64,000 nt of DNA, taken from contig NC_014207.1 of assembly GCF_000093025.1 (NCBI RefSeq), forward strand, positions 1,488,001 through 1,552,000, written 5' to 3'. Source of the DNA: Methylotenera versatilis 301 (GTDB taxonomy: Bacteria > Pseudomonadota > Gammaproteobacteria > Burkholderiales > Methylophilaceae). This document shows positions 18,109 through 35,198 of the stretch, piece after piece. The notes under the pieces are model-generated. The model did not search any database. It was not told the origin of the DNA and saw nothing but the letters and a program-made list of their open reading frames with translations. Numbering within the stretch: the first letter of the stretch is position 1; each line of letters starts with the position of its first letter. The position numbers and the translations under genes were made by a program.

Positions 18109-18167
18109 ATTACCTACGCAATTTGACGTATTTCATTCCATCCCCCAAGCCCTTAATCTAACACCAT
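18109..18167 (+). promoter_or_regulatory. Operator/promoter element B upstream of fmdA
   Basis: 18109-18135 matches element A at 24 of 27 positions; the palindrome is slightly degraded (TACGCAATTTGACGTA). After 17 unrelated bases TTAATCTAACACCAT follows (18153-18167, 13 of 15 identical). Conservation of both blocks and of the spacing, with free drift between and around them, marks a functional regulatory unit. Confidence 0.72.
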
Positions 18168-18275
18168 TGCAAAACGCTATATCACTGCAAGTTGGTATTG
18201 ATTGAAGCATTTAACTGTGCAAATTTGTTTACTTGTACTTGTGAATTTAATTGAAATATAAGCTGGAGGGTGCCA

Positions 18276-19499
18276 ATGAAAACGTTAGTTAAATTAGATT
18301 TAGATAAAAAACCTTGGGAGCAGGAAGGCCAGATTCATAATCGTTGGCATCCTGATTTACCTATGATCGCCATGGTTAAACCGGGCGACGAGTTCCGTGT
18401 TGAATGTATGGACTGGACAGGGGGCCAAATTGGCAACAACGACAGTGCTAATGACGTACGCGATGTGGATTTAACGCAAGTACATTATTTGAGCGGCCCA
18501 ATTGGTGTGGAAGGTGCTGAGCCAGGCGATTTAATGGTCGTTGAAATATTAGATGTGGGTACTTTTGAAGATAGTCAGTGGGGTTTTAACGGTATTTTCG
18601 CTAAAGAAAATGGCGGTGGCTTTTTAGTCGACCAGTATCCCGAAGCACGCAAATCTATCTGGGACTTTCATGGCATTTATACGACATCACGTCACGTACC
18701 CAATGTTAGATTCGCTGGCATTATGCACCCAGGCTTAATTGGCTGCTTACCTTCAAAAGAGCTGTTAGATAAATGGAATAAACGTGAAGGTGATTTGATT
18801 GCAACTGAACCTGACCGTGTTCCAGAGTTAGCTTTACCGCCAAATCCAAAATCAGCTGTGATGGGAAAAATGTCTGGCGAAGCAGCTAAAAAAGCAGCTT
18901 TAGAAGGCGCCCGTACTGTGCCACCACGTGAGCACGGCGGTAATTGCGACATCAAAAATCTAACCAAAGGTTCAAAAGTATATTTCCCTGTGTATGTCAA
19001 AGATGGCGGCCTCTCTATGGGCGATCTTCACTTCTCACAAGGCGATGGCGAAATTACGTTCTGTGGCGCTATAGAGATGGCAGGTTATTTAGACATCAAA
19101 GTTAGTTTAATTAAAGATGGCGTGAAGAAATATGGCATTAAAAACCCAATTTTCGAACCTAGCGTGCTTACGCCAACTTATAAAGACTACATCATTTTTG
19201 AAGGTATCTCAGTAAATGAGCAGGGCAAGCAGCTTTACTTGGATGTGAATGAGGCTTATCGCCAAGCTTGTTTAAACGCCATTGAGTATATGAAGAAATT
19301 TGGCTACACCGGCGCACAAGCCCTCTCTATTTTAGGCACTGCGCCAGTAGAAGGTCATATCAGCGGCATTGTGGATATTCCTAACGCCTGTGCCACTTTA
19401 TGGCTACCAACGGAGATATTCGACTTCGATATGAAGCCAAATGCGGATGGGCCAAAAGTCATGGTGAAACAAGGCATTGATACCGCTAAAACCAGCTAA
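18276..19499 (+). CDS. fmdA: Formamidase
   Basis: Acetamidase/formamidase family enzyme hydrolysing formamide (and slowly short amides) to formate and ammonia. 407 aa from ATG 18276, chosen because GGAGGG ends five bases before it; GTG at 18270 is in frame but overlaps that site. MKTLVKLDLDKKPWEQEGQIHNRWHPDLP matches the M. methylotrophus type in its start (residues 1-15 quoted in part), and GGNCD, GDLHFSQGDGE and CGAIEM are the conserved core. It is preceded by operator element B and followed 11 bp later by fmdB. The formate product could feed the formate dehydrogenase at 9.4-10.6 kb. Confidence 0.95.
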   Translation: MKTLVKLDLDKKPWEQEGQIHNRWHPDLPMIAMVKPGDEFRVECMDWTGGQIGNNDSANDVRDVDLTQVHYLSGPIGVEGAEPGDLMVVEILDVGTFEDSQWGFNGIFAKENGGGFLVDQYPEARKSIWDFHGIYTTSRHVPNVRFAGIMHPGLIGCLPSKELLDKWNKREGDLIATEPDRVPELALPPNPKSAVMGKMSGEAAKKAALEGARTVPPREHGGNCDIKNLTKGSKVYFPVYVKDGGLSMGDLHFSQGDGEITFCGAIEMAGYLDIKVSLIKDGVKKYGIKNPIFEPSVLTPTYKDYIIFEGISVNEQGKQLYLDVNEAYRQACLNAIEYMKKFGYTGAQALSILGTAPVEGHISGIVDIPNACATLWLPTEIFDFDMKPNADGPKVMVKQGIDTAKTS

Positions 19500-19510
19500 G
19501 GAGCATTTGC

Positions 19511-19849
19511 ATGCCAGTGTATGAATATGAATGTGATACCTGCGGTGTTTTTACTGCACTTAGAAAAATGAGTGAGTCTAGTGAGCCAGCGTTTTGTGAA
19601 GAGTGTGGTTGCGAAAGCCCACGCATTCTTTCAGCGCCTCGCTTAGCGGTAATGGATAGAACACAGCGTGTAGCACATGAACGAAATGAAAAATCTGCGC
19701 ATGACCCGAAAGTAGCAAAACGTTCAAGTTGTGGCTGTGCTGGTTCTCACACGTGCAAAACAAGCACAAAGGTGAACCCAGAAACAGGCAAAGCGGCTTT
19801 GCAAATGCAAACTAAAAAGACAGCAAGACCTTGGATGTTATCGCATTAA
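19511..19849 (+). CDS. fmdB: FmdB family zinc-ribbon protein
   Basis: 112 aa. N-terminal zinc ribbon MPVYEYECDTCG ... CEECGCES gives two Cys pairs, diagnostic of FmdB; a second small Cys cluster (SSCGCAGSHTC) sits near residue 80. In M. methylotrophus FmdB was proposed to regulate formamidase; as a member of a widespread small ribbon family its biochemical role is not established. Probably co-transcribed with fmdA. Confidence 0.9.
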   Translation: MPVYEYECDTCGVFTALRKMSESSEPAFCEECGCESPRILSAPRLAVMDRTQRVAHERNEKSAHDPKVAKRSSCGCAGSHTCKTSTKVNPETGKAALQMQTKKTARPWMLSH

Positions 19850-19968
19850 TTAGTGCAAGAGCGCTGTTTAATTGGTGCAAAAGCACTATAAAAACTTAGT
19901 AAAAAGTTGGTGAGTTTAGTTTTATTTTAATTGTGGTTTTTTTGATTTTTAAATGAGGAGACAGAGTG

Positions 19969-21213
19969 ATGAGTACTTTAAATAGGCGTAACTTTATGAA
20001 AGTTGGTGGCGCTCTAGCTGCGGCACTGCTTTCAGCAGGTATCTTAACTAACACAGCTTTGGCTGCTGATACTTCAACAGCCAAAGTGATGACTACGGGT
20101 CTAGCGGTAACAGACACGACAGTTAAAGTTGGTATCTTACATTCTGCTACAGGCACGATGGCCATTAGTGAAACAGGCTCTATTCAAGCTGAGAAGTTAG
20201 CGATTGAGCAAATTAATGCCATGGGTGGTATTTTGGGCCGTAAGATTGAAGTGATTCAAGAAGATGGCGCATCAGACTGGCCAACTTTTGCTGAAAAAGC
20301 AAAAAAACTACTCGCTTCAGACAAAGTAGCTGCGGTCATGGGTTGCTGGACATCAGCATCACGTAAAGCGGCATTGCCAGTGTTTGAAAAAGAAAATGGT
20401 CTATTGTTCTACCCAACTTTCTACGAGGGTTTAGAGCAATCTAAAAACGTTTTCTACACAGGCCAAGAAGCGACACAGCAAATTCTTGCTGGGTTAGATT
20501 GGATTGCTAAAGAGAAAAAAGCTAAGACTTTCTACCTAATCGGTTCTGACTACATTTGGCCACGTACTTCAATGAAAATCGCACGTAAACATATTGAGCA
20601 GCATTTGCATGGTTCAGTCGTAGGTGAAGAATACATCGCTTTAGGTGACACGCAATTTGGTTCTGTGATTAATAAAATCAAACTGAAAAAACCTGATGTG
20701 ATTTACGCAGCAGTGGTTGGTGGCAGTAACGTTGCATGGTTCAAACAATTAAATGCAGCAGGTTTGAATTCAGGTAAACAAACCATGTTAACGATCTCTG
20801 TGACTGAAGATGAAGTATTAGGCATTGGTGGTGAAAACTTAGCTGGTTTCTACTCAGCGATGAAGTACTTTCAATCTCTAGATACACCAACAAACAAAGC
20901 GTTTGTTGCCGCATTTAAGAAAAAATGGGGTGATAAATCTGTGATTGGTGATGTAACTCAAGCTGCTTACTTAGGCCCATGGCTTTATAAAGCTGCTGTT
21001 GAGCGTGCAGGCAGTTTTGATGTAGATAAAGTACAAGCAGCATTACCTGGCTATGTATTTAAAGATGCGCCAGAAGGTCCTGTGACTGTTGAGAAAAACC
21101 ATCACTTAACAACCAAGTTGCGTATTGGTCAATGGGAAAAAGATGGTCAAGCCAAAATTGTTTATACATCGGCTTACATCAAACCAGATCCATTTCCAAA
21201 AGGTTATCAATAA
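19969..21213 (+). CDS. urtA: Urea/short-chain amide ABC transporter, binding protein
   Basis: 414 aa from ATG 19969 (GAGGAG eight bases upstream; GTG 19966 is the alternative). It has a twin-arginine signal, NRRNFMKVGG, then an Ala-rich hydrophobic stretch, so it is probably exported by Tat. VKVGILHSATGTMAISET, SDWPTFAEKAKKLL, GCWTSASRK and LLFYPTFYEG are hallmarks of UrtA/AmiC-type binding proteins. By position this is FmdD of the Methylophilus fmdDEF set. Last base to urtB about 100 bp. Confidence 0.92.
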   Translation: MSTLNRRNFMKVGGALAAALLSAGILTNTALAADTSTAKVMTTGLAVTDTTVKVGILHSATGTMAISETGSIQAEKLAIEQINAMGGILGRKIEVIQEDGASDWPTFAEKAKKLLASDKVAAVMGCWTSASRKAALPVFEKENGLLFYPTFYEGLEQSKNVFYTGQEATQQILAGLDWIAKEKKAKTFYLIGSDYIWPRTSMKIARKHIEQHLHGSVVGEEYIALGDTQFGSVINKIKLKKPDVIYAAVVGGSNVAWFKQLNAAGLNSGKQTMLTISVTEDEVLGIGGENLAGFYSAMKYFQSLDTPTNKAFVAAFKKKWGDKSVIGDVTQAAYLGPWLYKAAVERAGSFDVDKVQAALPGYVFKDAPEGPVTVEKNHHLTTKLRIGQWEKDGQAKIVYTSAYIKPDPFPKGYQ

Positions 21214-21314
21214 TAGTGAGTTAGTTTGAAAGATGCAGCAGCTTATTGAATAAGCTGCTGCCATCTGAATGTTAAAGCAGTTTTTATCTTAGTAGCGATT
21301 AAGTAGGAGGCCGT

Positions 21315-22232
21315 ATGTTTGGATATTCGATGGCAGATATAGGCAATATCATGGTAATGCAGGGCTTTTCTGGCCTGAGTATGTTTACTGTATTGCTGCT
21401 GATGGCACTTGGCCTAGCCATTATTTTTGGGCAGATGGGCGTCATCAATATGGCGCACGGTGAATTTATGACCATTGGTGCATACACCACAGTCATGCTT
21501 TCTAAAGTCGCAACGACGTATGGTTTTGTGAACTATTACTTTGTTTTTGCCATTATTTTGGCATTTATTCTGGCCTTTGCGTTGGGATATTTTATTGAAT
21601 TTATTATGATTCGGCATCTCTACAAGCGCCCGCTAGATACGCTATTGGCGACATGGGGTTTGAGTTTAGTCATGCAGCAATCATTTCGTTCGACCTTTGG
21701 CGCAAAAGAAGTCAGTGCCGAATTACCTGAATGGATGTTGGGTTCATTCAAGCCAACGCCTGATATTGACATCCCGATTAACGGCGTTTTTGTCATGGTG
21801 CTCGCACTGTTTGTGACTGCAGGTGTTTACATGTTTATGTACCGCTCACGCTGGGGTCTCAGAGTACGTGCAACGGTTCAAAACCGTGTAATGGCTGGCG
21901 CAGTGGGTATCAATACGCAAAAAGTAGACCGTGTGACGTTTGCATTAGGTTGCGGAATCGCCGGGATTGCAGGTGCTGCATTTACCACGATTGCCTCTAC
22001 CGGACCCACAACAGGCACGCTTTATATTGTAGATAGCTTCATGGTGGTGGTGTTTGGTGGCGCAGCTAGCTTGATGGGTACGATTGCCTCAGCATTTGGT
22101 ATCGCGCAAGCGCAATCTATATTGCAATTTTTTATGACCAGCTCTATGGGTAAGGTTTCTACCTTATTAGTGATTGTTGGCATATTAATGATGAAACCAG
22201 AAGGCTTGTTTGCTTCTAAGCTTCGTAAGTAA
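21315..22232 (+). CDS. urtB: Urea/amide ABC transporter permease UrtB
   Basis: 305 aa, LivH-type permease with about eight membrane segments; MALGLAIIFGQMGVINMAHGEFMTIGAY (in part) and the late GGAASLMGTIASAFGIAQ EAA-like loop are conserved. It lacks the long N-terminal periplasmic extension seen in many gammaproteobacterial UrtB proteins. Strong GGAGG precedes the ATG. Equivalent to FmdE. Confidence 0.93.
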   Translation: MFGYSMADIGNIMVMQGFSGLSMFTVLLLMALGLAIIFGQMGVINMAHGEFMTIGAYTTVMLSKVATTYGFVNYYFVFAIILAFILAFALGYFIEFIMIRHLYKRPLDTLLATWGLSLVMQQSFRSTFGAKEVSAELPEWMLGSFKPTPDIDIPINGVFVMVLALFVTAGVYMFMYRSRWGLRVRATVQNRVMAGAVGINTQKVDRVTFALGCGIAGIAGAAFTTIASTGPTTGTLYIVDSFMVVVFGGAASLMGTIASAFGIAQAQSILQFFMTSSMGKVSTLLVIVGILMMKPEGLFASKLRK

Positions 22233-22250
22233 ACAGACAGGAGAATCAAC

Positions 22251-23444
22251 ATGAACGCATCCTTAAGTAAATTAGTAGGTGGCAAAGAAGGGCTGGTTGG
22301 GTTAGCAGTACTTGCCGCAATTATCTTTGTAGCGTTACCGCTAGGCGTAGATATCTTTAGGTTAAATTTGGTTGGCAAATACCTCACTTACGCTTTTGTA
22401 GCTGTGAGCTTGGTATTGCTGTGGGGTAATGGCGGTATTCTAAGCTTGGGACAAGGCATATTTTTTGGTTTAGGCGGCTATGGTATGGCGATGTTTATGA
22501 AGCTTGAGGCATCAGACCCTATTACTACCAAAATACAAACAACCCCTGGTATTCCTGACTTTATGGATTGGAATCAAATCACTTCCTTACCTTGGTTCTG
22601 GGAGCCGTTCAAGAGCTTGCCATTGACGATACTCATCATACTGACAATCCCCGCTTTGTTTGCTTACTTAATCGGATTTGCAATGTTTAAACGTCGCGTA
22701 GGCGGTGTTTACTTCGCGATCATCACGCAAGCGATTGCGCTTATATTAAGCATTTTGATCGTAGGTCAGCAAGGCTTTACCGGTGGTGTGAATGGCATTA
22801 CTGACCTTAAAACTGTTTGGGGATGGGATACACGTAACGACAGTGCGAAATACATTTTGTATTACCTCAATGGCTTTCTGTTGTTTGGTGCAATCTTGCT
22901 TTCAAAATATGTGTTAAACAGTAAATTCGGTATGTTGTTATTAGCGATGCGTGATAAAGAAGAGCGAGTACGTTTTTCTGGTTACGACGTATCAAACTTT
23001 AAAATATTTATTTTCTGTCTAGCCGCGATGATTTCAGCGGTGGGCGGCGCCATGTTTACACTTCAGGTTGGCTTTATGTCGCCATCTTTTGTAGGTATTG
23101 TCCCATCCATTGAAATGGTGATTTTCTGTGCGGTGGGTGGTCGGGCATCTTTAATTGGTGCGGTTTACGGTACGTTATTTGTGAATTTTGGTAAAACATT
23201 CTTTTCAGAAAGTTATCCAGAGCTTTGGCTCTTCATTATGGGTGGATTGTTTATCGCTGTTGTGATGTTCTTCCCAGACGGTTTAGCTGGTGTATGGGCT
23301 AAATATAGCCATAAGCTTAATGTCTTTAAAAAAAAGTCTAGCCTGACTTCTGCTACAGCGATCATTGATTCAACAAAAAATGAGGGTAGTAAAAAAGCAG
23401 TGAATGAGATTGATGTGACTAACATTGAAGGAGCGAAAGCATGA
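22251..23444 (+). CDS. urtC: Urea/amide ABC transporter permease UrtC
   Basis: 397 aa, LivM-type permease: GGILSLGQGIFFGLGGY, RRVGGVYFAIITQA, RDKEERVRFSGYDV and the AVGGRASLIGAVYGT loop. A hydrophilic Ser/Thr/Lys-rich tail of about 45 residues follows the last helix. Its stop overlaps the urtD start by ATGA. Equivalent to FmdF. Confidence 0.93.
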   Translation: MNASLSKLVGGKEGLVGLAVLAAIIFVALPLGVDIFRLNLVGKYLTYAFVAVSLVLLWGNGGILSLGQGIFFGLGGYGMAMFMKLEASDPITTKIQTTPGIPDFMDWNQITSLPWFWEPFKSLPLTILIILTIPALFAYLIGFAMFKRRVGGVYFAIITQAIALILSILIVGQQGFTGGVNGITDLKTVWGWDTRNDSAKYILYYLNGFLLFGAILLSKYVLNSKFGMLLLAMRDKEERVRFSGYDVSNFKIFIFCLAAMISAVGGAMFTLQVGFMSPSFVGIVPSIEMVIFCAVGGRASLIGAVYGTLFVNFGKTFFSESYPELWLFIMGGLFIAVVMFFPDGLAGVWAKYSHKLNVFKKKSSLTSATAIIDSTKNEGSKKAVNEIDVTNIEGAKA

Positions 23445-24184
23445 GTAATACAGACTTTGTGCTAGCTATTGAAGATTTAACGGTATCGTTTGATGGCTTT
23501 AAAGCGGTCGACAATCTGACAATGTACATAGATAGAAATGAGCTTCGTGTCGTCATTGGGCCAAATGGCGCAGGAAAAACTACAGTATTAGATTTAATCT
23601 GTGGCAAAACTAAATCAACTAACGGCTCTATCAAGTTTATGAATAAAGAGCTCACTAAGCTTTCAGAGCATGAAATTGTTCGCGAAGGGGTGGGGCGTAA
23701 ATTTCAAACACCGTCAATTTATGAAAACCTTTCGGTGTATCAAAATTTAGAGGTGTCCTATCCTAAAGGACGTAGCGTTTGGGGTAGCCTATTCTTTAAA
23801 CGTACTGCTGAAGTGAAAGAGCAAGTATTTAAAATTGCAGAAGAAATCATGCTCACTAACTTCTTAGACATGGAAGCTGCATTATTGAGCCATGGTCAAA
23901 AGCAATGGTTAGAGATAGGTATGCTGTTAATGCAGGATCCTCAGTTGCTAATGTTAGATGAGCCCGTAGCTGGAATGAGTGCTAAAGAGCGTGATCAAAC
24001 GGCTGAGCTGCTTAACAAAATAAGCAATAACCGTTCAGTATTGGTGATTGAGCATGACATGGAGTTCGTGAAGAAAATCGCTCACAAAGTTACCGTACTG
24101 CATCAAGGAAAAATCTTGGCTGAAGGTCCTATGGATCAGGTACAAGAAGATGAAAAAGTGATTGAAGTTTACCTTGGACATTAA
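23441..24184 (+). CDS. urtD: Urea/amide ABC transporter ATPase UrtD
   Basis: 247 aa. Walker A GPNGAGKTT at about 39-47, LivG-type GRKFQTPSIYENLSVYQNLE, signature LLSHGQKQWLEIGM and Walker B LLMLDEPVAGM. The signature LSHGQ in place of LSGGQ is usual for this subfamily. Couples ATP hydrolysis to import with UrtE. Confidence 0.95.
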   Translation: MSNTDFVLAIEDLTVSFDGFKAVDNLTMYIDRNELRVVIGPNGAGKTTVLDLICGKTKSTNGSIKFMNKELTKLSEHEIVREGVGRKFQTPSIYENLSVYQNLEVSYPKGRSVWGSLFFKRTAEVKEQVFKIAEEIMLTNFLDMEAALLSHGQKQWLEIGMLLMQDPQLLMLDEPVAGMSAKERDQTAELLNKISNNRSVLVIEHDMEFVKKIAHKVTVLHQGKILAEGPMDQVQEDEKVIEVYLGH

Positions 24185-24222
24185 GTCCAGACCATTAATC
24201 CAGTCCATTAAGGAAACTTGAT

Positions 24223-24912
24223 ATGTTTGAAATTGAAAATCTGCAAGTAAGCTATGGTCAAAGCCAAGTGATACATGGTCTTAACTTTACCGCTAATAAA
24301 AATGAAACGCTCGCTATTATGGGTCGTAATGGCATGGGTAAAACTACGCTGTTTAAATCACTGATGGGTATTTTGCCAAGCAAAACAACAAAAGCTGTTG
24401 TCGACGGTGTTAGCTTAGAAGGGAATGATAGCTACCAGCGAGTTGCCAAAGGTTTAGCTTATGTACCACAGGGACGTATGATTTTCCCTAATATGACAGT
24501 GCAAGAAAACATTGAAACAGGGTTAGAAAAGTCTAAAACGCGTGAGATTCCAGAAGATATTTATGCGCTCTTCCCTGTGTTATACGACATGCGTAAACGC
24601 AAGGGCGGTAATCTGTCTGGGGGACAGCAGCAGCAACTCGCGATTGCTCGGGCGCTGGTGACTAATCCTAAAGTATTGTTGCTTGATGAACCAACTGAAG
24701 GAATCCAGCCGTCTATCATTAAAGACATCGCTAAAGTCTTGAATGAGATTCGTAAAATGCGAGAAATCACCATTATCGTTTCCGAGCAAGTGTTGAGCTT
24801 TACCATGGAAATTGCAGATCGCATTATTGTGATAGACAAAGGGAAGTTCATTCATGAAGATACTCGCGATAATGTAGATGCCGCTAAAATTAAAGGTTAT
24901 TTGTCAGTTTAA
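24223..24912 (+). CDS. urtE: Urea/amide ABC transporter ATPase UrtE
   Basis: 229 aa, LivF type. Walker A GRNGMGKTT, AYVPQGRMIFPNMTVQENI, signature LSGGQQQQLAIARAL, Walker B VLLLDEPTEGIQP, H-loop replaced by Gln (VSEQVLSF), as is usual in UrtE. AAGGAAAC precedes the ATG. Last transporter gene; ureD begins 38 bp later. Confidence 0.95.
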   Translation: MFEIENLQVSYGQSQVIHGLNFTANKNETLAIMGRNGMGKTTLFKSLMGILPSKTTKAVVDGVSLEGNDSYQRVAKGLAYVPQGRMIFPNMTVQENIETGLEKSKTREIPEDIYALFPVLYDMRKRKGGNLSGGQQQQLAIARALVTNPKVLLLDEPTEGIQPSIIKDIAKVLNEIRKMREITIIVSEQVLSFTMEIADRIIVIDKGKFIHEDTRDNVDAAKIKGYLSV

Positions 24913-24949
24913 AATATTTTATGCAAAAAATTTATGGCATCATGGAGTG

Positions 24950-25840
24950 ATGGATGACGCAACAATATTACAAAGCACTAGCCCAGTAGCTCAAGCGCAG
25001 CCTGCACTCAAGCGCTGGGAGGCATGCTTAAGTTTAGATTTTTCTAAACGAATTAACCGCAGTTATTTAGCTAAAAACTTGCACGTAGGCCCACTGGTGT
25101 TGCAAAAATCTTTGCACCCAGAAGGTGATGCTGTGTGTCATGGCATCGTGGTGCATCCACCGGGCGGCGTAGCTGGCGGAGACTCACTCACGCTTAACGT
25201 GAGTCTTAATCAAGGGGCGTTTGCATTACTCACGACGCCCGGCGCAGGTAAGTGGTATAAAGCCAATGGGCAACAAGCCTGCCAGTATTTGAAGTTCAAT
25301 CTTGGGGGGAACACCTGTTTTGAATGGTTACCACAAGAGAATATTTTGTTTGATGGCGCTCAAGTTAAGTTTAGCGCTGAAGTGAGTTTAGACGCTGAAG
25401 CTAAATATGCTGGTTGGGAAATACTATGTTTTGGTCGCCAAGCGCAAAAAGAAGTATGGCAAACGGGTAGCTTGCATCAAAACTTAAGTATTCGTCGAAA
25501 TGGCAAGTTGATTTGGAATGAGCTTAGCTTTTTGAAGCCTGAGCATAAGGTCATGCAATCGATAGTGGGTTTACACGGTAATGCAGTATCAGCAAGTTTT
25601 GTGATTGCTGCAGGTAAAGTTCCAGATGAGGTACTAGCGGCATGTAGAGAAATACAGCCTAAATTAGCCTTAGATATGCAGGCCAGATATGGTGTGACTA
25701 CGATGCCAGAAATTTTTTCTGCAAGATATATCGGTCAATCAGCACAATGTGCAAGGCAATATTTTGAGTCGTTATGGCAGATTTTACGTCCGTGGTATGC
25801 AGGCCTCGAGGCGACAAGGCCGAGAATTTGGAACACCTAG
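24950..25840 (+). CDS. ureD: Urease accessory protein UreD
   Basis: Chaperone that with UreF and UreG loads nickel into the apo-urease. About 296 aa from ATG 24950; a longer in-frame start at 24878 would lie inside urtE and lacks family similarity. Conserved HPEGDAVCHGIVVHPPGGVAGGDSL (in part), TTPGAGKWYK and LPQENILFDGA. The ribosome site is poor (GGAG only two bases before the ATG), so the exact start is uncertain. Confidence 0.9.
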   Translation: MDDATILQSTSPVAQAQPALKRWEACLSLDFSKRINRSYLAKNLHVGPLVLQKSLHPEGDAVCHGIVVHPPGGVAGGDSLTLNVSLNQGAFALLTTPGAGKWYKANGQQACQYLKFNLGGNTCFEWLPQENILFDGAQVKFSAEVSLDAEAKYAGWEILCFGRQAQKEVWQTGSLHQNLSIRRNGKLIWNELSFLKPEHKVMQSIVGLHGNAVSASFVIAAGKVPDEVLAACREIQPKLALDMQARYGVTTMPEIFSARYIGQSAQCARQYFESLWQILRPWYAGLEATRPRIWNT

Positions 25841-25893
25841 ATTTTTTAAAAAGTAACTTGCGCCCGCACAATAATAGACTAATGCCGATTAAA

Positions 25894-25931
25894 AAGAGAG
25901 TTTTTGCATGGAATTGAATGTATGGAATTAA
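25894..25931 (+). promoter_or_regulatory. Duplicated ureA start region with a 7-codon decoy frame
   Basis: AAGAGAG (25894-25900) is well placed for an ATG at 25908, but that ATG opens only MELNVWN and stops at 25929-25931. The true ureA ATG is 14 bases further on (25922), out of frame, within an apparent 14-bp tandem duplication (ATGGAATT at 25908 and 25922). Ribosomes reading the short frame would terminate just inside ureA and might reinitiate. Confidence 0.5.
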
Positions 25932-26224
25932 CCCCTAGAGAAAAAGATAAACTTCTCATCTTTACTGCTGGCTTACTTGCAGAACGTCGCAAGGCGCGAG
26001 GCTTAAAGCTTAATTATCCAGAATCGATTGCTCTTATTTCAGCCGCCATTATGGAAGGTGCGCGCGACGGCAGAACCGTCGCAGAGTTGATGAGCTACGG
26101 CACAACCTTGCTGACACGTGATGATGTGATGGAAGGAATTGCTGAGATGATTCCGGACATTCAGATCGAGGCAACTTTTCCAGATGGCACTAAGCTTGTC
26201 ACCGTTCACCATCCAATTCCGTAA
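25922..26224 (+). CDS. ureA: Urease subunit gamma
   Basis: 100 aa. [23 protein letters not shown]... (start shown in part) is the classic UreA N-terminus, which fixes the start at 25922. Conserved [25 protein letters not shown] and C-terminal [14 protein letters not shown]. Unusual start context: see the duplicated start region. Eleven bases separate it from ureB. Confidence 0.96.
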
Positions 26225-26235
26225 AGGCAGCTCTA

Positions 26236-26544
26236 ATGATTCCAGGTGAAATGAAAATCGCTAACGGTGACATTACAATAAATGCTGGCAGAGCCACTGT
26301 GACAATTGACGTATCTAATATGGGTGACCGACCAATACAAATCGGTTCGCATTATCACTTTTTTGAAACTAACGAAGCTTTGAGTTTTGATAGACAAGCG
26401 GCTTATGGTTTTAGGTTAAATATTGCATCAGGTACGGCTGTCCGTTTTGAGCCGGGTCAAACGCGAACAGTAGTGTTAGTGGCGCTGGCTGGCGAAAGAA
26501 AAGTATATGGCTTCGCCGGTAAAGTGATGGGGTCACTCAAATGA
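26236..26544 (+). CDS. ureB: Urease subunit beta
   Basis: 102 aa. IPGEM near the start, [33 protein letters not shown] and the C-terminal [10 protein letters not shown] are conserved. Structural subunit contacting the UreC active-site flap. The stop lies 10 bp before the ureC ATG. Confidence 0.96.
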
Positions 26545-26554
26545 GCGTAAAACC

Positions 26555-28258
26555 ATGAGTATAAACATAGACAAGCGTGCCTATGCCGAGATGTTTGGTC
26601 CGACAGTGGGCGATAAAGTGCGCTTAGCCGATACCGAACTCTGGATAGAAGTAGAGAAAGATTACACACTCTATGGTGAAGAAGTTAAATTCGGCGGTGG
26701 TAAAGTCATTCGTGATGGTATGGGTCAAGGCCAACTTTGTGCTAAAGACGTTGCCGATACGGTCATTACTAACGCATTGATTATTGATCACTGGGGTATT
26801 GTTAAAGCTGATATTGGTATCAAAAATGGGCGAATTTCCGCGATTGGTAAAGCGGGCAACCCTGATATTCAGTCAGCTGTGACGATTGCAATTGGCGCAG
26901 GCACAGAGATTATTGCAGGCGAAGGCATGATAGTGACAGCAGGTGGGGTGGATACACATATTCACTTTATCTGTCCGCAACAAATCGAAGAGGCTTTGAT
27001 GTCTGGCGTGACAACCATGTTGGGTGGTGGCACAGGCCCAGCCACAGGGACTTTTGCTACTACTTGTACACCAGGCCCTTGGCATATTCACCGTATGTTG
27101 CAGTCAGCTGATGCATTTCCGATGAACTTGGGCTTTTTAGGTAAAGGTAATGTGAGCTTGCCAGAGCCATTGCGTGAACAGGTTGAAGCTGGTGCCATTG
27201 GTTTAAAACTGCATGAAGACTGGGGCACTACGCCAGCAGCGATTGATAACTGCTTGAATGTGGCTGAAGAAATGGACATTCAAGTAGCGATTCACTCTGA
27301 CACTTTGAATGAATCTGGCTTTGTGGAAACCACGATTGCAGCCTTTAAAGACCGCACTATTCACACCTTTCACACCGAAGGCGCGGGTGGTGGTCATGCA
27401 CCAGATATTATTAAAGCGGCTGGTTACGCTAATGTGCTGCCGTCATCTACTAACCCTACACGCCCATTTACGGTCAACACTATTGATGAGCATTTAGATA
27501 TGCTCATGGTTTGCCATCATCTAGACCCAGCCATTGCAGAAGACATTGCTTTTGCCGAAAGTCGTATTCGTCGCGAAACCATTGCAGCGGAGGATATTTT
27601 GCATGACTTAGGCGCATTTTCCATGATGTCATCTGACTCGCAAGCCATGGGGCGCGTGGGGGAGGTGATTATTAGGACTTGGCAAACTGCACATAAAATG
27701 AAAATACAGCGTGGCGCCCTAGCTGAAGATTCAGCTAGCAATGATAATTTTCGTGTGAAACGCTATATTGCCAAATATACGATTAATCCTGCACTTACGC
27801 ATGGTATTGCCGATACCGTAGGCTCAATAGAAGTTGGGAAATTAGCGGACTTAGTCCTGTGGCGACCAGCGTTTTTTGGGGTGAAACCTTCCACTATTCT
27901 AAAAGGCGGCATGATAGCGGCGGCTGCGATGGGCGATCCGAACGCATCTATTCCTACGCCACAACCAGTGCATTACCGCCAAATGTTTGGCGCCTATGGT
28001 GGTGGGCTTAAAACCTCCGTCACTTTTGTTTCGCAAGCGGCTTTGCACAATCCGGCTTTGGCTGCGCTTAATTTAAATAAAACGCTAGTACCTGTACGAG
28101 GCACCCGAACGGTCAGAAAAGTAGACATGATACATAACGGCTATATGCCAAAAATTGATGTAGACCCTGAAACCTATATTGTTCGAGCTGATGGTATTTT
28201 ACTTGCTTGTGAACCAGCAAGTATCTTGCCGATGGCACAGCGCTACTTCTTATTCTAG
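26555..28258 (+). CDS. ureC: Urease subunit alpha (catalytic)
   Basis: 567 aa. Hydrolyses urea at a di-nickel centre. Ligands are all present: His135 and His137 in GVDTHIHF, the Lys218 that is carbamylated (GLKLHEDWG), His247 in VAIHSDT, His273 in [11 protein letters not shown], and Asp361 in [10 protein letters not shown]. The flap Cys320-His321 is in MVCHHLDP. Intact and apparently active. Part of ureDABCEFG behind the urea transporter. Confidence 0.98.
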
Positions 28259-28290
28259 GTCTATTCTGGGTTTATTTTTAGGTTTATTTG

Positions 28291-28788
28291 ATGATTAATA
28301 TTAACAAACGTCTTGGTCACTTTCAGCAAAGCAAAGTCGATGATCAATTGGTGCTGCCTTTTGATTTACGCCAAAGAAGTCGCTTACGTGTGACTTTATC
28401 ATCAGGTCGTGAAGCCGCATTATTGCTTGATCGTGGAACTATCATGCGTGGAGGTGATTTACTTGAAACCGAAGATGGCTATGTCGTAGAAATTGTTGCT
28501 GCACCACAAGCCGTTACCGATGTCACCGCCAAAACGCCTCAAGCCTTAATGTGCGCTGCTTATCATTTAGGCAATCGGCATGTACCCTTGCAAGTGGGTG
28601 ACGGTTGGCTAAGATTGGAGCAAGATCACGTGTTAAATGAAATGTTAGTGGGTTTGGGCATGACCACTACAGATCAAAATGCTCCATTTGAGCCTGAAGC
28701 TGGCGCCTACGGTGGCGGTCACAGACATGATGGGGATGATGACAATTATCAGCGTTTGCCCTCTAAACGGTTGAAACCAAATGCTTAA
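28291..28788 (+). CDS. ureE: Urease accessory protein UreE
   Basis: Nickel-binding metallochaperone, about 165 aa. LPFDLRQRSRLRVTLSSG, the LLDRG block, AAYHLGNRHVPLQV (the core metal His), and a short C-terminal His motif GGHRHDGDDD. ATG 28291 is preferred over the TTG at 28288. The end overlaps ureF. Confidence 0.93.
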   Translation: MININKRLGHFQQSKVDDQLVLPFDLRQRSRLRVTLSSGREAALLLDRGTIMRGGDLLETEDGYVVEIVAAPQAVTDVTAKTPQALMCAAYHLGNRHVPLQVGDGWLRLEQDHVLNEMLVGLGMTTTDQNAPFEPEAGAYGGGHRHDGDDDNYQRLPSKRLKPNA

Positions 28789-29494
28789 GCCATCGAATAT
28801 CGCGACTCATATTGCACCCAATATTGCGTTAAGCCGTTTACTGCAACTTGCCAGCCCTATGTTGCCAGTCGGTGCTTACAGCTATTCACAAGGCTTAGAA
28901 TGGGCCATTGAGTGCGGTGATGTGTATCATCAAGCAAGCGCTAAAACTTGGATAGCCGATGTGCTAGATATCTATCAGCAGCGTTATGAACTACCAATTT
29001 TATATCGCATATACCAAGCTTGGCAGGCTGATGATATGGCTGCTATGAGTGACTGGGATGCAAAATTTCAAGCTGGCCGTGATACCGCTGAAGCGCTAGC
29101 AGAGAGCCGTCAAATGGGCTATTCACTGCGTCGCTTATTAAATGATGTTGGGTCGTTACCATTAGAGTTTCTAGAAAAAATCAATGCGCTCGAAACCCCA
29201 GCTTTTCCTACAATATATGCAGGAATTGCCTATCATTGGCATATTTCTGCACAAGATTTGTTACATGCCTACGCTTGGTCTTGGGTTGAAAATCAAGTCA
29301 GTGCAGCCATGAAAGCTGTGCCGCTTGGACAGGTGGCAGGGCAAAGAATCCTGCTGGAAATAGGAGAGTCTTTACCAGAATGTGTCGCACAAGCGATGTG
29401 TTTAGACGATTTTGCAATCAGTAACTTTGTTCCCGGCCTCAGCATTGCTGGGTGTCGCCATGAAACCCAATATAGTCGATTATTCAGATCATGA
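28781..29494 (+). CDS. ureF: Urease accessory protein UreF
   Basis: 237 aa helical protein; [21 protein letters not shown] is the family opening (21 residues, shown in part: [13 protein letters not shown]), and the C-terminal [21 protein letters not shown] is typical. It acts as a GTPase-gating partner of UreG. Overlaps both ureE and ureG. Confidence 0.93.
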
Positions 29495-30126
29495 TTCCTA
29501 CAAAAATTAAACCCAATACTCAATCAGAACCCTTACGTGTGGGCATAGGCGGGCCTGTCGGTTCAGGCAAAACGGCTTTAACGTTGGCTTTGTGTCAGCG
29601 TCTGCGTGATGTTTATAATATTGCCGTGGTCACTAACGATATTTACACCAAAGAAGATGCCGAGTTTCTAACGCGCAATGAAGCGCTCACGCCAGATCGC
29701 ATTATTGGCGTAGAAACTGGAGGTTGCCCACATACCGCGATTCGTGAAGATGCTTCCATGAACCTAGAGGCAGTATCGCAATTGTGCGAACGTTTTGAGG
29801 CGCTAGATATTGTGTTTATTGAAAGTGGTGGTGATAATCTGGCAGCAACATTTAGCCCAGAACTTTCAGACTTAACCATTTATGTGATTGATGTTGCCGC
29901 GGGTGAAAAAATTCCACGCAAAGGTGGCCCAGGCATTACTAAGTCTGACTTACTTATTATCAATAAAATTGATTTAGCGCCTATGGTTGGCGCTTCTTTA
30001 GAAGTGATGGACAGAGATGCAAAGCGTATGAGAGGTGAGCGCCCGTTTATTTTTACTAACTTAAAAATTGGGCAAGGTTTAGAAGAAATCGTTAAATTTA
30101 TTGAAAAGCAAGGCTTAATGCTTTAG
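29491..30126 (+). CDS. ureG: Urease accessory GTPase UreG
   Basis: 211 aa. P-loop GGPVGSGKT at 20-28, [28 protein letters not shown] with the Cys-Pro-His nickel motif, [15 protein letters not shown] and NKIDLAP. Starts in ATGA-type overlap with ureF, 10 bp before the UreJ gene. Confidence 0.97.
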
Positions 30127-30136
30127 GAGTAATGAT

Positions 30137-30703
30137 ATGAAAAAACAAATCACAATAGCGGCTTTATTTTCATTGTTTTCTGGCATCGCTAGCGCACATC
30201 CAGGACACGGTTTAGACGGTGCATATGCAGGCTTTATGCACCCATTCACAGGTTGGGATCATTTACTGGTGATGCTGGCAATTGGTGTCTGGGCCGCTAA
30301 GTTGGGTGGAAAAGCACGCTGGCAGCTGCCGCTGACATTTGTCGCGATCATGGCGACGGGTGCTGTATTGGGTTTATCAGGTTTAAATTTCGCCTACGCA
30401 GAAACCGCGATTGCCGCCAGTGTCATGGCGATGGGCGTACTGTTGATGATGAGTTTACCGATGAACAAGATGATGCAATTGAGCATTACAGCTTTATTTG
30501 CCTTATTTCATGGGTTGGCGCATGGTATAGAGCTTCAATCACAATCAAGTTCAGCCGCGTTAGGTGGAATGTTATTCGCAACGGCTATGCTGCATAGTCT
30601 AGGCCTTTTGATGGCTTCTCAGCGCGTAAAGATGGTTCATGTGCTTAACAACTCTTTAGCTTGGTTATTGCTGTTGGTAGGTGGCTACTTATTATTAGCT
30701 TAG
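30137..30703 (+). CDS. ureJ: HupE/UreJ family protein
   Basis: 188 aa with a signal-like first helix and about six membrane segments. HPGHGLDG and FMHPFTGWDHLLVMLAIG are the HupE/UreJ hallmark, with His/Asp residues likely binding nickel; a second FHGLAHGIE motif follows. Probably brings nickel to the urease chaperones. Last urease gene. Confidence 0.92.
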   Translation: MKKQITIAALFSLFSGIASAHPGHGLDGAYAGFMHPFTGWDHLLVMLAIGVWAAKLGGKARWQLPLTFVAIMATGAVLGLSGLNFAYAETAIAASVMAMGVLLMMSLPMNKMMQLSITALFALFHGLAHGIELQSQSSSAALGGMLFATAMLHSLGLLMASQRVKMVHVLNNSLAWLLLLVGGYLLLA

Positions 30704-30768: not shown

Positions 30769-30811
30769 AAGGTACGTTTGTTGCTTACAACAATATACTT
30801 TATGAATATTG

Positions 30812-33800
30812 ATGCAATCGGATGTTGAATTGAACCCTAATAATTTGTCATTGGCACCGCCAGAAAATGCCAAGCCAACACAGCGCATCATTAAAATACG
30901 CCGGGACTACAACACATGGGTGGCGAATGAATCTATAGAGGATTTTGCCCTTCGCTTTACACCTCGATCATTCCGTAAGTGGTCAATTTTTCGCGTTTCA
31001 AATACTGCTTTAAGCGCCATTTCATTTCTGGTCTTAGAGGCCGTTGGCGGCACTATCGCGGTTAATTATGGCGCAGTAAACGCGCTGTGGGCGATTTTAG
31101 CTGTGGGCGTCATTATATTTTTAACCGCGCTACCTATTAGCTTTTATGCGGCTAAATATGGCCTAGACATGGATTTACTTACCCGTGGCGCTAGTTTTGG
31201 CTACATTGGCTCCACTATTTCATCTTTTATTTACGCCTCTTTCACGTTTATTTTATTTGCATTAGAAGCCGCCATTATGGCTTATGCACTAGAGCTATAT
31301 TTTCATTTACCTCTCTACCTCGGTTACTTAGTTAGCGCCCTGGTCGTCATTCCTTTTGTGATTCATGGCGTCACATTAATCAATCGAATTCAGATGTTCA
31401 CACAACCTGTTTGGCTGATACTCATGTGCATGCCTTTTATTGCAATCATGTATCAAGACCCAGAAGTCATCTCACGCATGATGCTCTTTGCGGGTGCATC
31501 TGGCGAGCGGGGGGAGTTTAATCTGCTTCTATTTGGTGCTGCAACTGCAGTAGGGGTGGCTTTAATTCCCCAAATTGGTGAGCAAGTAGACTTTCTTCGC
31601 TTTATGCCAGAAAAAACACCTGAAAATAGTTGGCGGTGGAATTTGGGCGTGCTGACGGCTGGACCTGGCTGGGTATTTGTAGGCATGATAAAAATGGCAG
31701 CGGGCGTTTTATTGGCTTATCTCGTCATTCAAAGTGACATGTCATTTCTACAGGCAACTAATCCCACGCAAATGTATTTAGTGGGTTATCAGTATTTATT
31801 TAGCTCAAAAGAATTAGCTTTGGGTATGACGGCGTTATTTGTTGTGATTTCCCAAGTTAAAATTAATATGACCAATGCTTATGCAGGTTCACTGGCATGG
31901 TCTAACTTTTTTGCTCGGTTAACACATAGCCATCCAGGCCGCGTGGTTTGGGTGGTTTTTAATGCCAGTATCGCAATCGTATTAATGGAGTTAGATGTAT
32001 TTAAAGCCTTAGAGCAGGTATTGGCTTTATATTCAAACATCGCTATTGCATGGATTGCGGCTGTCGTGGCTGATTTAGTCATCAATAAGCCACTTGGCTT
32101 AAGCCCGAAGGGCATTGAATTTAGACGCGCTTATTTGTACGATATTAATCCTGTAGGCGTGGGAGCTATGCTATTGGCTTCGTTGTTTTCTATCACTGCG
32201 TTTTCAGGTGTTTTTGGCGTTGTACCTCAAGCATTTTCTGCTTTTATCGCACTTTTTACCGCATTGATTGCATCGCCAATTATTGCTTGGCTTACTAAGG
32301 GTAAATACTATATTGCGCGCAAACCAATTGTATTTAGCCCAACAACCCGTATCGCTAAATGCACCGTTTGTGAGCGCGAATATGAAACGCCAGATATGGC
32401 GCATTGCCCAGCATATCAAGGCTTTATTTGTTCGCTATGCTGTTGCCTAGATGCACGTTGTAATGATGCTTGCAAGCCTGATGCCAAATTTTCTACCCAA
32501 TGGGAAGCTACCCTAAAGAAAGTATTACCTAAAACGCTTTGGACCTATCTGAATTCTGGTTTAAGTGCCTACTTACTTTTGATGAGTATTACCTTAACTT
32601 TTTTAGCAACCTTGCTATGGCTAATTTATTACCATGAAAGCCAAGTGTTGGCGCAAACCGCCGCTAGCTTATTGCCACAATTACGTTCTGGCTATTTGAA
32701 GATATTTTCTGCACTTGTGTTTGCAAGTGCCATTATTGCTTGGTGGTTGGTATTGACTGGTCAAAGTAGGCGTGTGGCGCAAGAGGAATCTAACCGTCAG
32801 ACAGGTTTATTACAACGTGAAATAGAGTTACATCAAAAAACCGATGCTGAGCTTCAACTAGCACGACAGGTTGCAGATCAAGCTAACCAAGCTAAAAGTC
32901 GCTACATTACCGGTATTAGCCACGAACTACGCACGCCACTCAATAGCATTTTAGGCTACGCACAATTGTTAGATAACGATACGTCTATTCCAGATAGTCG
33001 TTTACAAGCGATACGTGTGATACGTCGCAGCGGCGAACATTTGCTATCACTCATTGAAGGTACGCTCGATATTGCACGTATCGAAGGCGGCAAACTTACT
33101 TTTGATATCAAGCCATTGAGATTCCCAGAATTTATTAAACAAATAGTCAGCATGTTTGAATTGCAAGCGCGTAACAAAGGTATTAATTTTGCCTATGAAG
33201 TGACAAGCGAGCTGCCAAAAATGGTGCGTGCCGACCAAAAGCGCTTAAGTCAAATACTCATTAATATTTTGGGTAACGCGGTCAAGTTTACGCAACATGG
33301 CGGCGTAGTTTTCCGGGTGCAGTATGCACGTGAACTAGTGCAAATTGAGATTGAAGATACTGGCCCTGGCATACAAACCCATGAAATTGATTCTGTATTT
33401 GAGCCATTTGCAAGAGGTAGCGCAGCTGCCAACGATAGAATAGGGGGGACTGGTTTGGGTCTCACTATTAGCAAGTTGTTAACGCAATTAATGGGCGGTG
33501 AAATCAGTGTGAACAGCGTGGTAGGGAAGGGTACCATATTTAAAATTAAGTTATTCTTACCACAAATACACAAAACCCAAGAAATAGAAGCAGTGTTAGC
33601 CGCCCAGCGTATTGGCTATGTAGGCACAAGAAAGAGAATACTGGTGGTAGATAATGAGTATATTGATAGAGAAATGTTAGTCACTCTGCTCCAGCCGCTA
33701 GGTTTTGAAATGGCCGAAGCTGCCAATGGTCTGGAGTGTCTTGAACAACATACAGTATTTAATCCTGATTTAATTTTGATGGATCTTGCTATGCCGATGA

Positions 33801-34258
33801 TGGATGGTTGGGAAGCCAGTTATGTCATACGTAAAGTACGGCAGTCTGATGTGCCAATTGGTATTGTATCGGCTAATGCCTTCGATAAAGGCTTAGAAAA
33901 CACTGCAGGCATAGGTGCTGAAGACTTTATATTAAAACCCGTAGAGCTATCTGAGTTGTTAGATTGGCTAGGTAAACAACTTAATTTAGAATGGATTACC
34001 GCGTCAGAAAATCAGCTATTGCCTGTCGAAGAGCCAAACTTTACGCCTGTATTGGTTGCACCACCTAAAATCTATCTAGATGAGTTGTTAGCGTTAATGA
34101 AAATAGGGTATGTTCGGGGTATTTCTAAAAAAATTGATGAAATAGAGAGTTTAGATGTCGAATATAAAGTATTTGCTATTGCGATGAGAAAGTTTGCACA
34201 ACAATTCCAGTTAGCTGCCATGAAGAAATTTGTGGAAGAGATTAACACCTATGAGTAA
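30812..34258 (+). CDS. NCS1 permease-type hybrid sensor histidine kinase
   Basis: About 1148 aa. Residues about 55-500 form a 12-helix NCS1 (cytosine/purine/allantoin type) permease; about 518-555 hold nine cysteines (CTVC, HC, ICSLCCC, RC, AC), probably a metal site; two more membrane helices lie at about 577-608 and 629-652. A HisKA domain follows with His705 in SHELRTPLNS, then HATPase (NILGNAVKFT, EDTGPGI, GGTGLGLTI), and a receiver with Asp992 in LILMDLAMP and Lys1043. The last about 90 residues form a helical tail without a His, so it is not an Hpt. It presumably senses urea, an amide or a related solute through the permease part and passes phosphate to the adjacent regulator. No good Shine-Dalgarno is seen; ATG 30812 or TTG 30809 are candidates. 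The ligand is inferred. Confidence 0.88.
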   Translation: MQSDVELNPNNLSLAPPENAKPTQRIIKIRRDYNTWVANESIEDFALRFTPRSFRKWSIFRVSNTALSAISFLVLEAVGGTIAVNYGAVNALWAILAVGVIIFLTALPISFYAAKYGLDMDLLTRGASFGYIGSTISSFIYASFTFILFALEAAIMAYALELYFHLPLYLGYLVSALVVIPFVIHGVTLINRIQMFTQPVWLILMCMPFIAIMYQDPEVISRMMLFAGASGERGEFNLLLFGAATAVGVALIPQIGEQVDFLRFMPEKTPENSWRWNLGVLTAGPGWVFVGMIKMAAGVLLAYLVIQSDMSFLQATNPTQMYLVGYQYLFSSKELALGMTALFVVISQVKINMTNAYAGSLAWSNFFARLTHSHPGRVVWVVFNASIAIVLMELDVFKALEQVLALYSNIAIAWIAAVVADLVINKPLGLSPKGIEFRRAYLYDINPVGVGAMLLASLFSITAFSGVFGVVPQAFSAFIALFTALIASPIIAWLTKGKYYIARKPIVFSPTTRIAKCTVCEREYETPDMAHCPAYQGFICSLCCCLDARCNDACKPDAKFSTQWEATLKKVLPKTLWTYLNSGLSAYLLLMSITLTFLATLLWLIYYHESQVLAQTAASLLPQLRSGYLKIFSALVFASAIIAWWLVLTGQSRRVAQEESNRQTGLLQREIELHQKTDAELQLARQVADQANQAKSRYITGISHELRTPLNSILGYAQLLDNDTSIPDSRLQAIRVIRRSGEHLLSLIEGTLDIARIEGGKLTFDIKPLRFPEFIKQIVSMFELQARNKGINFAYEVTSELPKMVRADQKRLSQILINILGNAVKFTQHGGVVFRVQYARELVQIEIEDTGPGIQTHEIDSVFEPFARGSAAANDRIGGTGLGLTISKLLTQLMGGEISVNSVVGKGTIFKIKLFLPQIHKTQEIEAVLAAQRIGYVGTRKRILVVDNEYIDREMLVTLLQPLGFEMAEAANGLECLEQHTVFNPDLILMDLAMPMMDGWEASYVIRKVRQSDVPIGIVSANAFDKGLENTAGIGAEDFILKPVELSELLDWLGKQLNLEWITASENQLLPVEEPNFTPVLVAPPKIYLDELLALMKIGYVRGISKKIDEIESLDVEYKVFAIAMRKFAQQFQLAAMKKFVEEINTYE

Positions 34259-35198
34259 CCTTAAGCCAAGCAGAGACGGTGCGCCTATTGTGCTCATTGT
34301 CGATGATGTGCCCGATAACTTAGCAGTGTTACATGATGCATTGGATGAATCAGGATTTACTGTATTAGTCGCTAATAATGGAGAGGCTGCTCTAGTGGCT
34401 GCGATAGAAGCGCAACCTGGCATTATATTGCTCGATGCTATCATGCCTGGCATGGATGGTTTTGAGGTATGCAGAAAGCTAAAAGCAGACATTAATACTC
34501 GTCATATTCCAATCATTTTCATGACAGGGCTCACTGAGTCTGAACATGTGGTTGCAGCGTTTCAGGCGGGCGGAACTGATTATATTACGAAGCCTATACG
34601 TGCAATAGAAGTGCTAGCAAGAATAGATGCGCACATGCAAACTTCGCGCTTGATGAATCAGGCGCGTGGGGCCTTAGACGCATTCGGTCAGGCTGCTGTT
34701 GCGATTACACCAAGTAATGGCAAGGTTGTATGGCAAACGCCTTTAGCAAGAGAATGGATGCAGCGATATTTTCCAGAGCATTATGCACATTATCAATCCA
34801 AAACGCCGCCACAAGTATTATCTTGGATTGAAAAAGTATCACTCGCTCGAGAAACGCAAGCTGATATACCACTTTTGACAATTGTTTTACCAAGAGGGCG
34901 TTTGAACTTTGTTCCAGCAGAACTTAACGATAGTGAGCAGTGGGTAATTTTGCTGCGAGAAGAGTCTGATGCAGCGCAGATAGAGGCATTGATGACGATA
35001 TTTAAGTTAACTAGCCGAGAGTCAGAAGTTTTGTACTGGGCCACCAAAGGTAAAACCAGCCGCGATATTGGTGACATTCTTGGCTCCAGCCCACGCACCG
35101 TAAATAAACACCTAGAGCATGTGTTTGTTAAGTTAGGCGTAGAAACAAGAACTGCGGCGGCGGCCTTAGCCTCTAGCAAAATTCGTACTATAAAGTAA
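34251..35198 (+). CDS. LuxR-type response regulator paired with the permease-kinase
   Basis: 315 aa from ATG 34251, which overlaps the kinase stop by 8 bp. Receiver domain with Asp62 in ILLDAIMPGMDG and Lys in YITKPI; a central segment of about 110 residues (ARGALDAFGQAAVAI ... WVILLREES) that resembles a degenerate PAS-like linker; C-terminal LuxR helix-turn-helix LTSRESEVLYWATKGKTSRDI (shown in part: LTSRESEVLYWATKG) and SSPRTVNKHLEHVFVKLGV. It is the best in-window candidate for binding the palindromes before fmdC and fmdA. Confidence 0.9.
   Translation: MSNLKPSRDGAPIVLIVDDVPDNLAVLHDALDESGFTVLVANNGEAALVAAIEAQPGIILLDAIMPGMDGFEVCRKLKADINTRHIPIIFMTGLTESEHVVAAFQAGGTDYITKPIRAIEVLARIDAHMQTSRLMNQARGALDAFGQAAVAITPSNGKVVWQTPLAREWMQRYFPEHYAHYQSKTPPQVLSWIEKVSLARETQADIPLLTIVLPRGRLNFVPAELNDSEQWVILLREESDAAQIEALMTIFKLTSRESEVLYWATKGKTSRDIGDILGSSPRTVNKHLEHVFVKLGVETRTAAAALASSKIRTIK

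Follow-up and report, generated by a model that had tools for sequence, protein, structure and literature searches.

A fusion of an NCS1-type permease with a histidine kinase is a probable sensor for urea and short-chain amides

What does a histidine kinase sense when the first half of its chain is a permease and its gene stands directly behind the genes for urea uptake and hydrolysis? The question is raised by a stretch of 64,000 nucleotides from Methylotenera versatilis 301 (contig NC_014207.1, positions 1,488,001 to 1,552,000, forward strand), the whole of which is called the window here. In it, a single frame of 1148 codons runs from an ATG at 30812 to a stop at 34258, with an in-frame TTG at 30809. 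Comparison of this frame with its relatives and their neighbourhoods indicates that a fusion between a member of the nucleobase-permease family and a kinase switches on urea and small-amide uptake genes in many bacteria. The protein is probably a urea/short-chain-amide transceptor, that is, a two-component kinase with an NCS1-type permease as its ligand-binding sensor, which controls uptake genes. The sensor and its partner are composed as follows (TM, transmembrane; aa, amino acids):

30812..34258, + strand: sensor gene, encoding an NCS1-type permease, a Cys-rich segment, two TM helices, HisKA, HATPase and a receiver in 1148 aa (open frame, Pfam, fold and profile comparison)
30929..32326, + strand: predicted NCS1-type permease domain, about aa 40-505, with TM1 and TM6 broken (AlphaFold model, Foldseek matches CodB and Mhp1, hhalign)
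32360..32473, + strand: Cys-rich segment, aa 517-554, with eight conserved cysteines (alignment rows of fusions)
32573..32761, + strand: two additional TM helices, about aa 588-606 and 632-650 (hydropathy, AlphaFold model)
32891..33091, + strand: HisKA with the phospho-acceptor His704 (Pfam PF00512)
33233..33559, + strand: HATPase_c (Pfam PF02518)
33638..33964, + strand: receiver domain with Asp991 (Pfam PF00072)
34251..35198, + strand: LuxR-type response regulator (REC and GerE), overlapping the 3' end of the sensor gene, with an alternative start TTG at 34230 (Pfam)

Pfam matched HisKA, HATPase_c and Response_reg within the frame, and with His704, Asp991, the HATPase domain and the adjacent regulator gene the protein is a hybrid histidine kinase with a LuxR-type partner. 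The eight cysteines are invariant in one alignment of fusions (38/38 rows) and in another (32/32). The linker between permease and kinase, the place of STAC in CbrA, gave zero Pfam matches, and the model has a Cys-rich piece and long helices there; a separate, alignment-free model of the Cys-rich segment was poor (pLDDT 62.9) and was discarded. The gene is no assembly artefact, since six further Methylotenera genomes carry the sensor intact with 74-99% identity in the permease part; in one of the six (G001) a TAA falls within the match and the frame begins some codons later. Scans for promoters and terminators around the gene returned nothing above the shuffled level.

Direct searches with the permease part said little about its family. 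Pfam returned zero models up to E 10 for the permease part alone, sequence searches of PDB and Pfam gave no useful match, and the NCBIfam cytosine permease model was matched weakly (E 1.1e-5, 24 bits, cut-off 326). Transp_cyt_pur was not among the families listed (25 of 27) for 32 fusion N-termini in Pfam, and it matched 2/8 members of a set that included stand-alone relatives. The link was therefore made by a bridge from the family profile through canonical NCS1 proteins to Mhp1 and CodB: with hhalign, a profile of 18 family members matched ten canonical NCS1 (PF02133) proteins at a probability of 98.8 and E 1.1e-16, and the ten proteins themselves retrieve Mhp1 and CodB. An AlphaFold model built from 38 sequences (mean pLDDT 75.3, pTM 0.73) has breaks at aa 69-73 and 250-253, in TM1 and TM6, where the LeuT fold is broken too. 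Foldseek found CodB (E 2.4e-7) and Mhp1 (E 6.7e-7) nearest to the model; its top five PDB matches were CodB and Mhp1, with a sodium-coupled sialic acid symporter sixth. By profile and predicted fold, the permease part belongs to the NCS1 superfamily. It shares these two features with CodB and Mhp1 and differs from them in lying below Pfam detection, in bearing a signalling output and at the positions of Mhp1 W117, W220, Q121 and S312. The initial annotation had described a 12-helix NCS1-type permease, two helices, HisKA, HATPase and a receiver in one chain of about 1148 residues, and had compared it with the CbrA transporter-kinase fusions. Frame, Pfam and model bear out the chain, hhalign and the predicted fold agree with the family assignment to which Pfam is blind, and the comparison is a fair one as to manner of working; the Cys-rich segment (aa 517-554), which precedes the two extra helices, was absent from that description.

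The genes that raise the question of function all lie upstream of the sensor gene and run in the same direction:

16384..17523, + strand: fmdC-like outer-membrane porin gene (position and literature, PMC10781810; no Pfam match)
18270..19849, + strand: fmdA (formamidase) and an fmdB-like zinc-ribbon gene, the latter being the open frame 19511-19849 (NCBIfam FormamaseFmdA)
19966..24912, + strand: urtABCDE, urea/amide ABC transporter (NCBIfam UrtA, UrtB, UrtC; D and E by annotated-record match)
24878..30703, + strand: ureD to ureG and ureJ (UreC by NCBIfam, UreJ by Pfam, UreD, UreF and UreG by annotated-record match)

UrtA, UrtB, UrtC, UreC and FmdA score above the NCBIfam cut-off in the window and UreJ is found by Pfam, while UrtD, UrtE, UreD, UreF and UreG were named through matches to annotated plasmid records; ureA, ureB and ureE are putative members of the cluster. 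To see this neighbourhood across the family, we opened the best 80 of at least 579 stretches in the genome collection that encode relatives, and counted a locus as positive when the fetched flank of up to 10 kb held at least two urt genes, ureC/ureG or fmdA (at least 36% identity). Urea or amide genes accompany 62/80 loci, 34 of the 80 having urt genes, and 49 of the 60 loci that span at least 20 kb are positive. A regulator homologue lies in the fetched flank of 77/80 relatives, mostly adjacent. At the level of whole genomes, UrtA exceeds its cut-off in 12/18 family-positive genomes of the class vs 69/352 others (p 3.5e-5). The initial annotation had placed the sensor directly after the urt-ure cluster, which holds for UrtA to UrtE, UreC, UreD, UreF, UreG and UreJ, the fmd genes lying further upstream. 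It had named homologues confined to unrelated loci, such as those for pyrimidines, as the case against itself, and the opposite was seen. Its proposal that the sensor serves urea and amide genes draws comparative support from this linkage and from a palindrome at urt and fmd promoters.

This palindrome, TACGTCA-NN-TGACGTA (16 bases), was obtained de novo with a Gibbs sampler from 17 divergent regions, 16 between sensor and urtA and one between sensor and fmdA. It holds 22.1 bits of information vs 8.7-8.9 bits in four shuffled sets, and the 17/17 sites read TACG...CGTA, the sampler picking one site per region by design. A matrix score of at least 10 was reached within 1.4 kb upstream of urtA in 26/32 held-out sensor loci vs 0/38 regions from genomes in which no family member was found (p 8e-14), where the highest score was 8.8; at a cut-off of 13.5, about the lowest training score, the counts were 11/32 vs 0/38 (p 6e-5). 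Within about 420 bases, sites precede urtA in 20/28 cases (shuffled 0/28) and the sensor gene in 7/72, and none precedes ureC (0/45), ureG (0/37), ureJ (0/27), ureD (0/8) or the regulator gene (0/73), ureA not being a query. Across the 80 loci (1.6 Mb, with five of the training loci among them), the exact core occurs 15 times vs 0 in the reversed control: four times before fmdA, four before urtA, four before the sensor gene and three elsewhere. The predicted site is thus present at uptake promoters (urtA, fmd), a mark of an uptake regulator. Two predicted sites lie in the window:

18115..18130, + strand: predicted regulator site TACGCAATTTGACGTA, 140 nucleotides upstream of fmdA (top matrix score of the 64-kb window, 20.7)
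16233..16248, + strand: predicted regulator site TACGCAATATTGCGTA, 136 nucleotides upstream of the fmdC-like gene (second-best window score, 13.9)

The first score exceeds the maximum of 18.9 over 50 shuffles, and the second, taken alone, is within the range of shuffle maxima. The sites are kept in seven other Methylophilaceae genomes (both in five, one in the two where fmdC and fmdA adjoin), close kin in which such conservation is weak as independent support. A consensus set after the sites were known has three matches in the genome, the two window sites and one within a coding frame, and 0 in the reversed control. A weaker match (10.2) lies between open frames at 37649-37664 of the window, downstream of the system. 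On a Klebsiella plasmid (L017:11989-16219), the sensor gene and a regulator frame point away from urtABCDE and a formamidase gene, and a conserved site lies between the two groups; the gene table of this record, which is incomplete, shows no gene over the regulator frame.

Residues of the permease domain were compared between fusions and stand-alone permeases of the same clade:

31025..31039, + strand: TM1 sensor signature F72, L75, E76; close stand-alone permeases have Y72 and D75 (column counts)
31265..31267, + strand: E152 in TM3, aligned to Mhp1 Q121 (hhalign and HMMER alignment to Mhp1)
31571..31591, + strand: QIGEQVD motif at the TM6 break, aa 254-260 (column counts)
31859..31861, + strand: K350 in TM8, aligned to Mhp1 S312 (column counts; hhalign/HMMER mapping)

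Q254, E257, Q258 and D260 are each present in 156/156 fusion rows, and of the 155 fusion rows that have a residue at position 152, 154 have Glu, as do 22/22 stand-alone rows. Position 350 is Lys in 156/156 fusion rows and in 20/22 stand-alone rows, the remaining two having Arg. When at least 90% is required on each side, fusions and 20 stand-alone permeases are told apart by positions 72, 75, 190 and 358 alone, and E76 occurs in 155/155 fusion rows with a letter and 0/22 stand-alone rows; the 156 fusion and 22 stand-alone rows were not thinned of kin, and the difference may be one event. Q121, W117, W220 and S312 of Mhp1 are taken here to contact substrate or sodium. By alignment, W117 corresponds to L148 (F in most members, F or L overall) and W220 approximately to L251 (mostly L in the family), the latter mapping crossing a gapped stretch. 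That neither Trp is kept speaks against a nucleobase, hydantoin or allantoin substrate, and nucleobase transport by the permease part is unlikely on these alignments. S312 is presumably a sodium-ligand position, and an invariant Lys there suggests, by analogy, a sodium-independent protein. K196 of CbrA, the lysine behind this analogy, presumably sits on a different helix from K350. The available text of the CbrA preprint reads K196 as a sign of sodium independence (PMC13022988).

Stand-alone 'cytosine/allantoin permeases' from the urease clusters of Klebsiella and Acinetobacter and from beside fmdA in Moraxella and Methylovirgula belong to the same clade as the sensor, with 43-54% identity and the same pocket residues. 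They differ from it in their length of about 535-624 aa, in having no signalling domain and in Y72/D75 of TM1, and their urease-linked branch has a shortened Cys motif. Of the 21 stand-alone loci opened, nine adjoin ure genes, seven fmdA and one an aliphatic amidase gene, 17 in all, these loci not being independent (three Acinetobacter plasmids; eight from five genomes of one family chosen for having such a gene). The four loci without such a neighbour are two from Streptomyces, one from Arthrobacter and one A. baumannii record, and the copy in L207 is broken. In G293, G796, G800, G803 and in Methylovirgula, stand-alone permease, fmdA and sensor occur together. The tree contains two very long outgroup branches, and neither its root nor the order of fusion and stand-alone forms was relied on. 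We regard it as evenly balanced whether the whole clade handles urea and short-chain amides, its stand-alone members being unrecognised permeases and one branch having become transceptors through changes in TM1 and TM8, the linker and interchangeable outputs. The permease that ends the Klebsiella urease cluster is a candidate for such an unrecognised urea/amide permease. Clade members also stand at the start of urease gene clusters in Acinetobacter and are likewise candidate urea permeases; the copies L182:6962-8569, L180:6971-8578, L187:6971-8578 and L188:5663-7270 are annotated as cytosine/allantoin permease or hypothetical protein.

In the mechanism that we propose, urea or a short-chain amide (formamide, acetamide) would bind the permease pocket from outside, and the conformational change would reach the HisKA/HATPase core by way of the Cys-rich segment and the helix pair that follows it. 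Phosphate would go to the LuxR-type regulator next door, as linkage and domain types suggest, and the regulator is predicted to bind TACGTCA-NN-TGACGTA at uptake promoters, here those of fmdC and of fmdA-fmdB-urtABCDE. It would be the binding of substrate that drives the kinase, not its transport or some other cue. The sensor appears to be sister to, or derived from, permeases that mostly lie by urease or formamidase genes, with few differences in TM1 and TM8, and it may have retained the pocket while coupled transport was lost or altered. The regulator presumably activates rather than represses. In the available text of a review (PMC10781810), the fmdCABDEF cluster of Methylophilus methylotrophus, to which the window cluster corresponds in gene content, is induced by formamide and urea and repressed by ammonia; activation fits because of this induction, the second regulator in the fmd cluster being a caution. 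That text places a putative positive regulator in the cluster and names no sensor, and 'two-component' does not occur in the paper.

Three other accounts of the fusion were weighed against the proposed one. The permease might still import urea or amides while the kinase reads the flux, as discussed for CbrA and histidine, so that sensing and uptake are one act. E152, Q254, E257, Q258, K350, N352 and N355, equally conserved in fusions and close stand-alone permeases, would suit this account, as would the alignment of K350 with the sodium-ligand position of Mhp1 and the lysine that, in the available text on CbrA, occupies the Na2 site of a proton-coupled transporter (PMC13022988). We nevertheless think it unlikely: positions 72, 75 and 358 set the fusions apart from every one of the 20 close stand-alone permeases, E76 is found in fusions only, and a dedicated importer is at hand where urt genes are nearby (34/80 loci). 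It is more doubtful still that the protein senses nitrogen status or another compound (cyanate, a nucleobase, some other amide), the proximity of urt genes reflecting a broad nitrogen response. Such a sensor would account for the 11 of 60 loci of at least 20 kb without urt, ure or fmd neighbours and for G180, which lacks UrtA and urease, but among the tested genes the palindrome accompanies urtA, fmd and some sensor promoters, not ure or regulator genes, and the sister permeases have urease, formamidase and aliphatic amidase genes as neighbours. Urease requires nickel, and this requirement, together with the invariance of the eight cysteines, would fit a signal from a metal (zinc, nickel) or redox state received by the Cys-rich segment, with the permease as an anchor. 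This we consider very improbable, for part of the Cys motif is already present in stand-alone permeases without a signalling domain, the pocket residues are as strictly conserved as the cysteines, and the palindrome lies upstream of urtA in 20/28 cases vs 0/45 for ureC (ureA not a query).

Several observations weigh against a urea/amide transceptor that controls uptake genes. The structural model is of middling confidence, and the Cys-rich segment could convey a separate signal. Eighteen of the 80 loci have no urt, ure or fmdA neighbour (seven of them are shorter than 20 kb), and because G180 has two fusions and neither UrtA nor urease, some of its members may respond to a different cue. As to the palindrome, the cut-off of 10 behind the 26 of 32 held-out loci was picked after the scores were known, three of those 26 sites lie more than 1.2 kb ahead of the urtA match, and 0/2 held-out loci have a site before fmdA. 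In its own genome, neither the loose pattern (14 vs 20 in the control) nor the exact core (2 vs 2) is enriched. The available text of PMC10781810, moreover, gives the fmd cluster a putative positive regulator of its own.

The transceptor that we propose resembles CbrA, MxtR/CrbS and PrlS (SLC5/SSS) in joining a LeuT-fold, transporter-like N-terminus to a histidine kinase in one chain and in nutrient control; in the available text of PMC7918813, a receiver is present in MxtR and a LuxR-type partner accompanies PrlS. It differs from CbrA in that its transporter part is NCS1, not SSS, in its linkage to urea/amide genes and in the Cys-rich segment and two TM helices that take the place of the STAC and PAS domains; its best PDB matches are CodB and Mhp1 rather than an SSS/SLC5 transporter domain. 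No paper on an NCS1-kinase fusion was found in the open-access literature, subscription papers being mostly outside this coverage. GrtK of Burkholderia glumae was considered as a relative and rejected, being a PilS-like kinase in the available text of PMC12918730. For Ectopseudomonas, an operon of urtABCDE is listed together with a hybrid kinase and a LuxR-family regulator, the available text making no mention of a permease part (PMC13296017), and a preprint discusses the urea uptake cluster of Klebsiella plasmids, 'histidine kinase' being absent from its main text (PMC13060141). If the proposal is true, a nitrogen source in wide use among Proteobacteria would gain the sensor that it has lacked, and SLC5 would be joined by a second fold family of transporter-kinase transceptors; the proposal would also name a candidate regulator of the urea uptake cluster that Klebsiella plasmids carry. 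With transporter and receptor of one clade in the same locus, one can ask which residues convert the former into the latter. Beyond the initial annotation, the comparison yielded a permease clade whose stand-alone members lie mostly by urease, formamidase or amidase genes, and a module that also feeds GGDEF-EAL outputs.

The family is widespread. It is matched in 10/61 genomes of relatives and 18/370 genomes of the class, one of the latter (G307) having the stand-alone form only. Among 397 sampled Pseudomonadota genomes, 73 match the stand-alone query, eight of them solely through weak matches to other NCS1 proteins, and 65 carry the fusion's linker (a 41-aa fragment in G517 excluded). Plasmid records match in 535/72,556 cases, and in 506 of these the match covers 80% of the query or more; Klebsiella accounts for 342. 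A search for the Cys-rich/two-helix linker on other transporters, with up to nine candidates scored per genome, placed all matches listed for the 397 genomes except the G517 fragment in frames that also match the permease, the coordinates being compared by eye. A metagenome-assembled relative (L073:10001-12079) has an in-frame stop codon within the matched stretch, and Paracoccus aminophilus (L016:8013-9641) has a distant NCS1 permease (27%) by hydantoinase genes, with a Cys-containing tail at its end. Seven unusual members were scanned: two have GGDEF-EAL and a PAS domain, which is weak in one of them, another has a kinase-receiver-Hpt arrangement, another PAS-PAS-kinase-receiver, and three have a kinase without receiver. 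Because several output types are attached to the same permease and linker, the two together look like a portable sensor module. The fusions to GGDEF-EAL, a cyclic-di-GMP output, lie at L050:7258-10809 and L051:7349-11020, the latter in genome G180.

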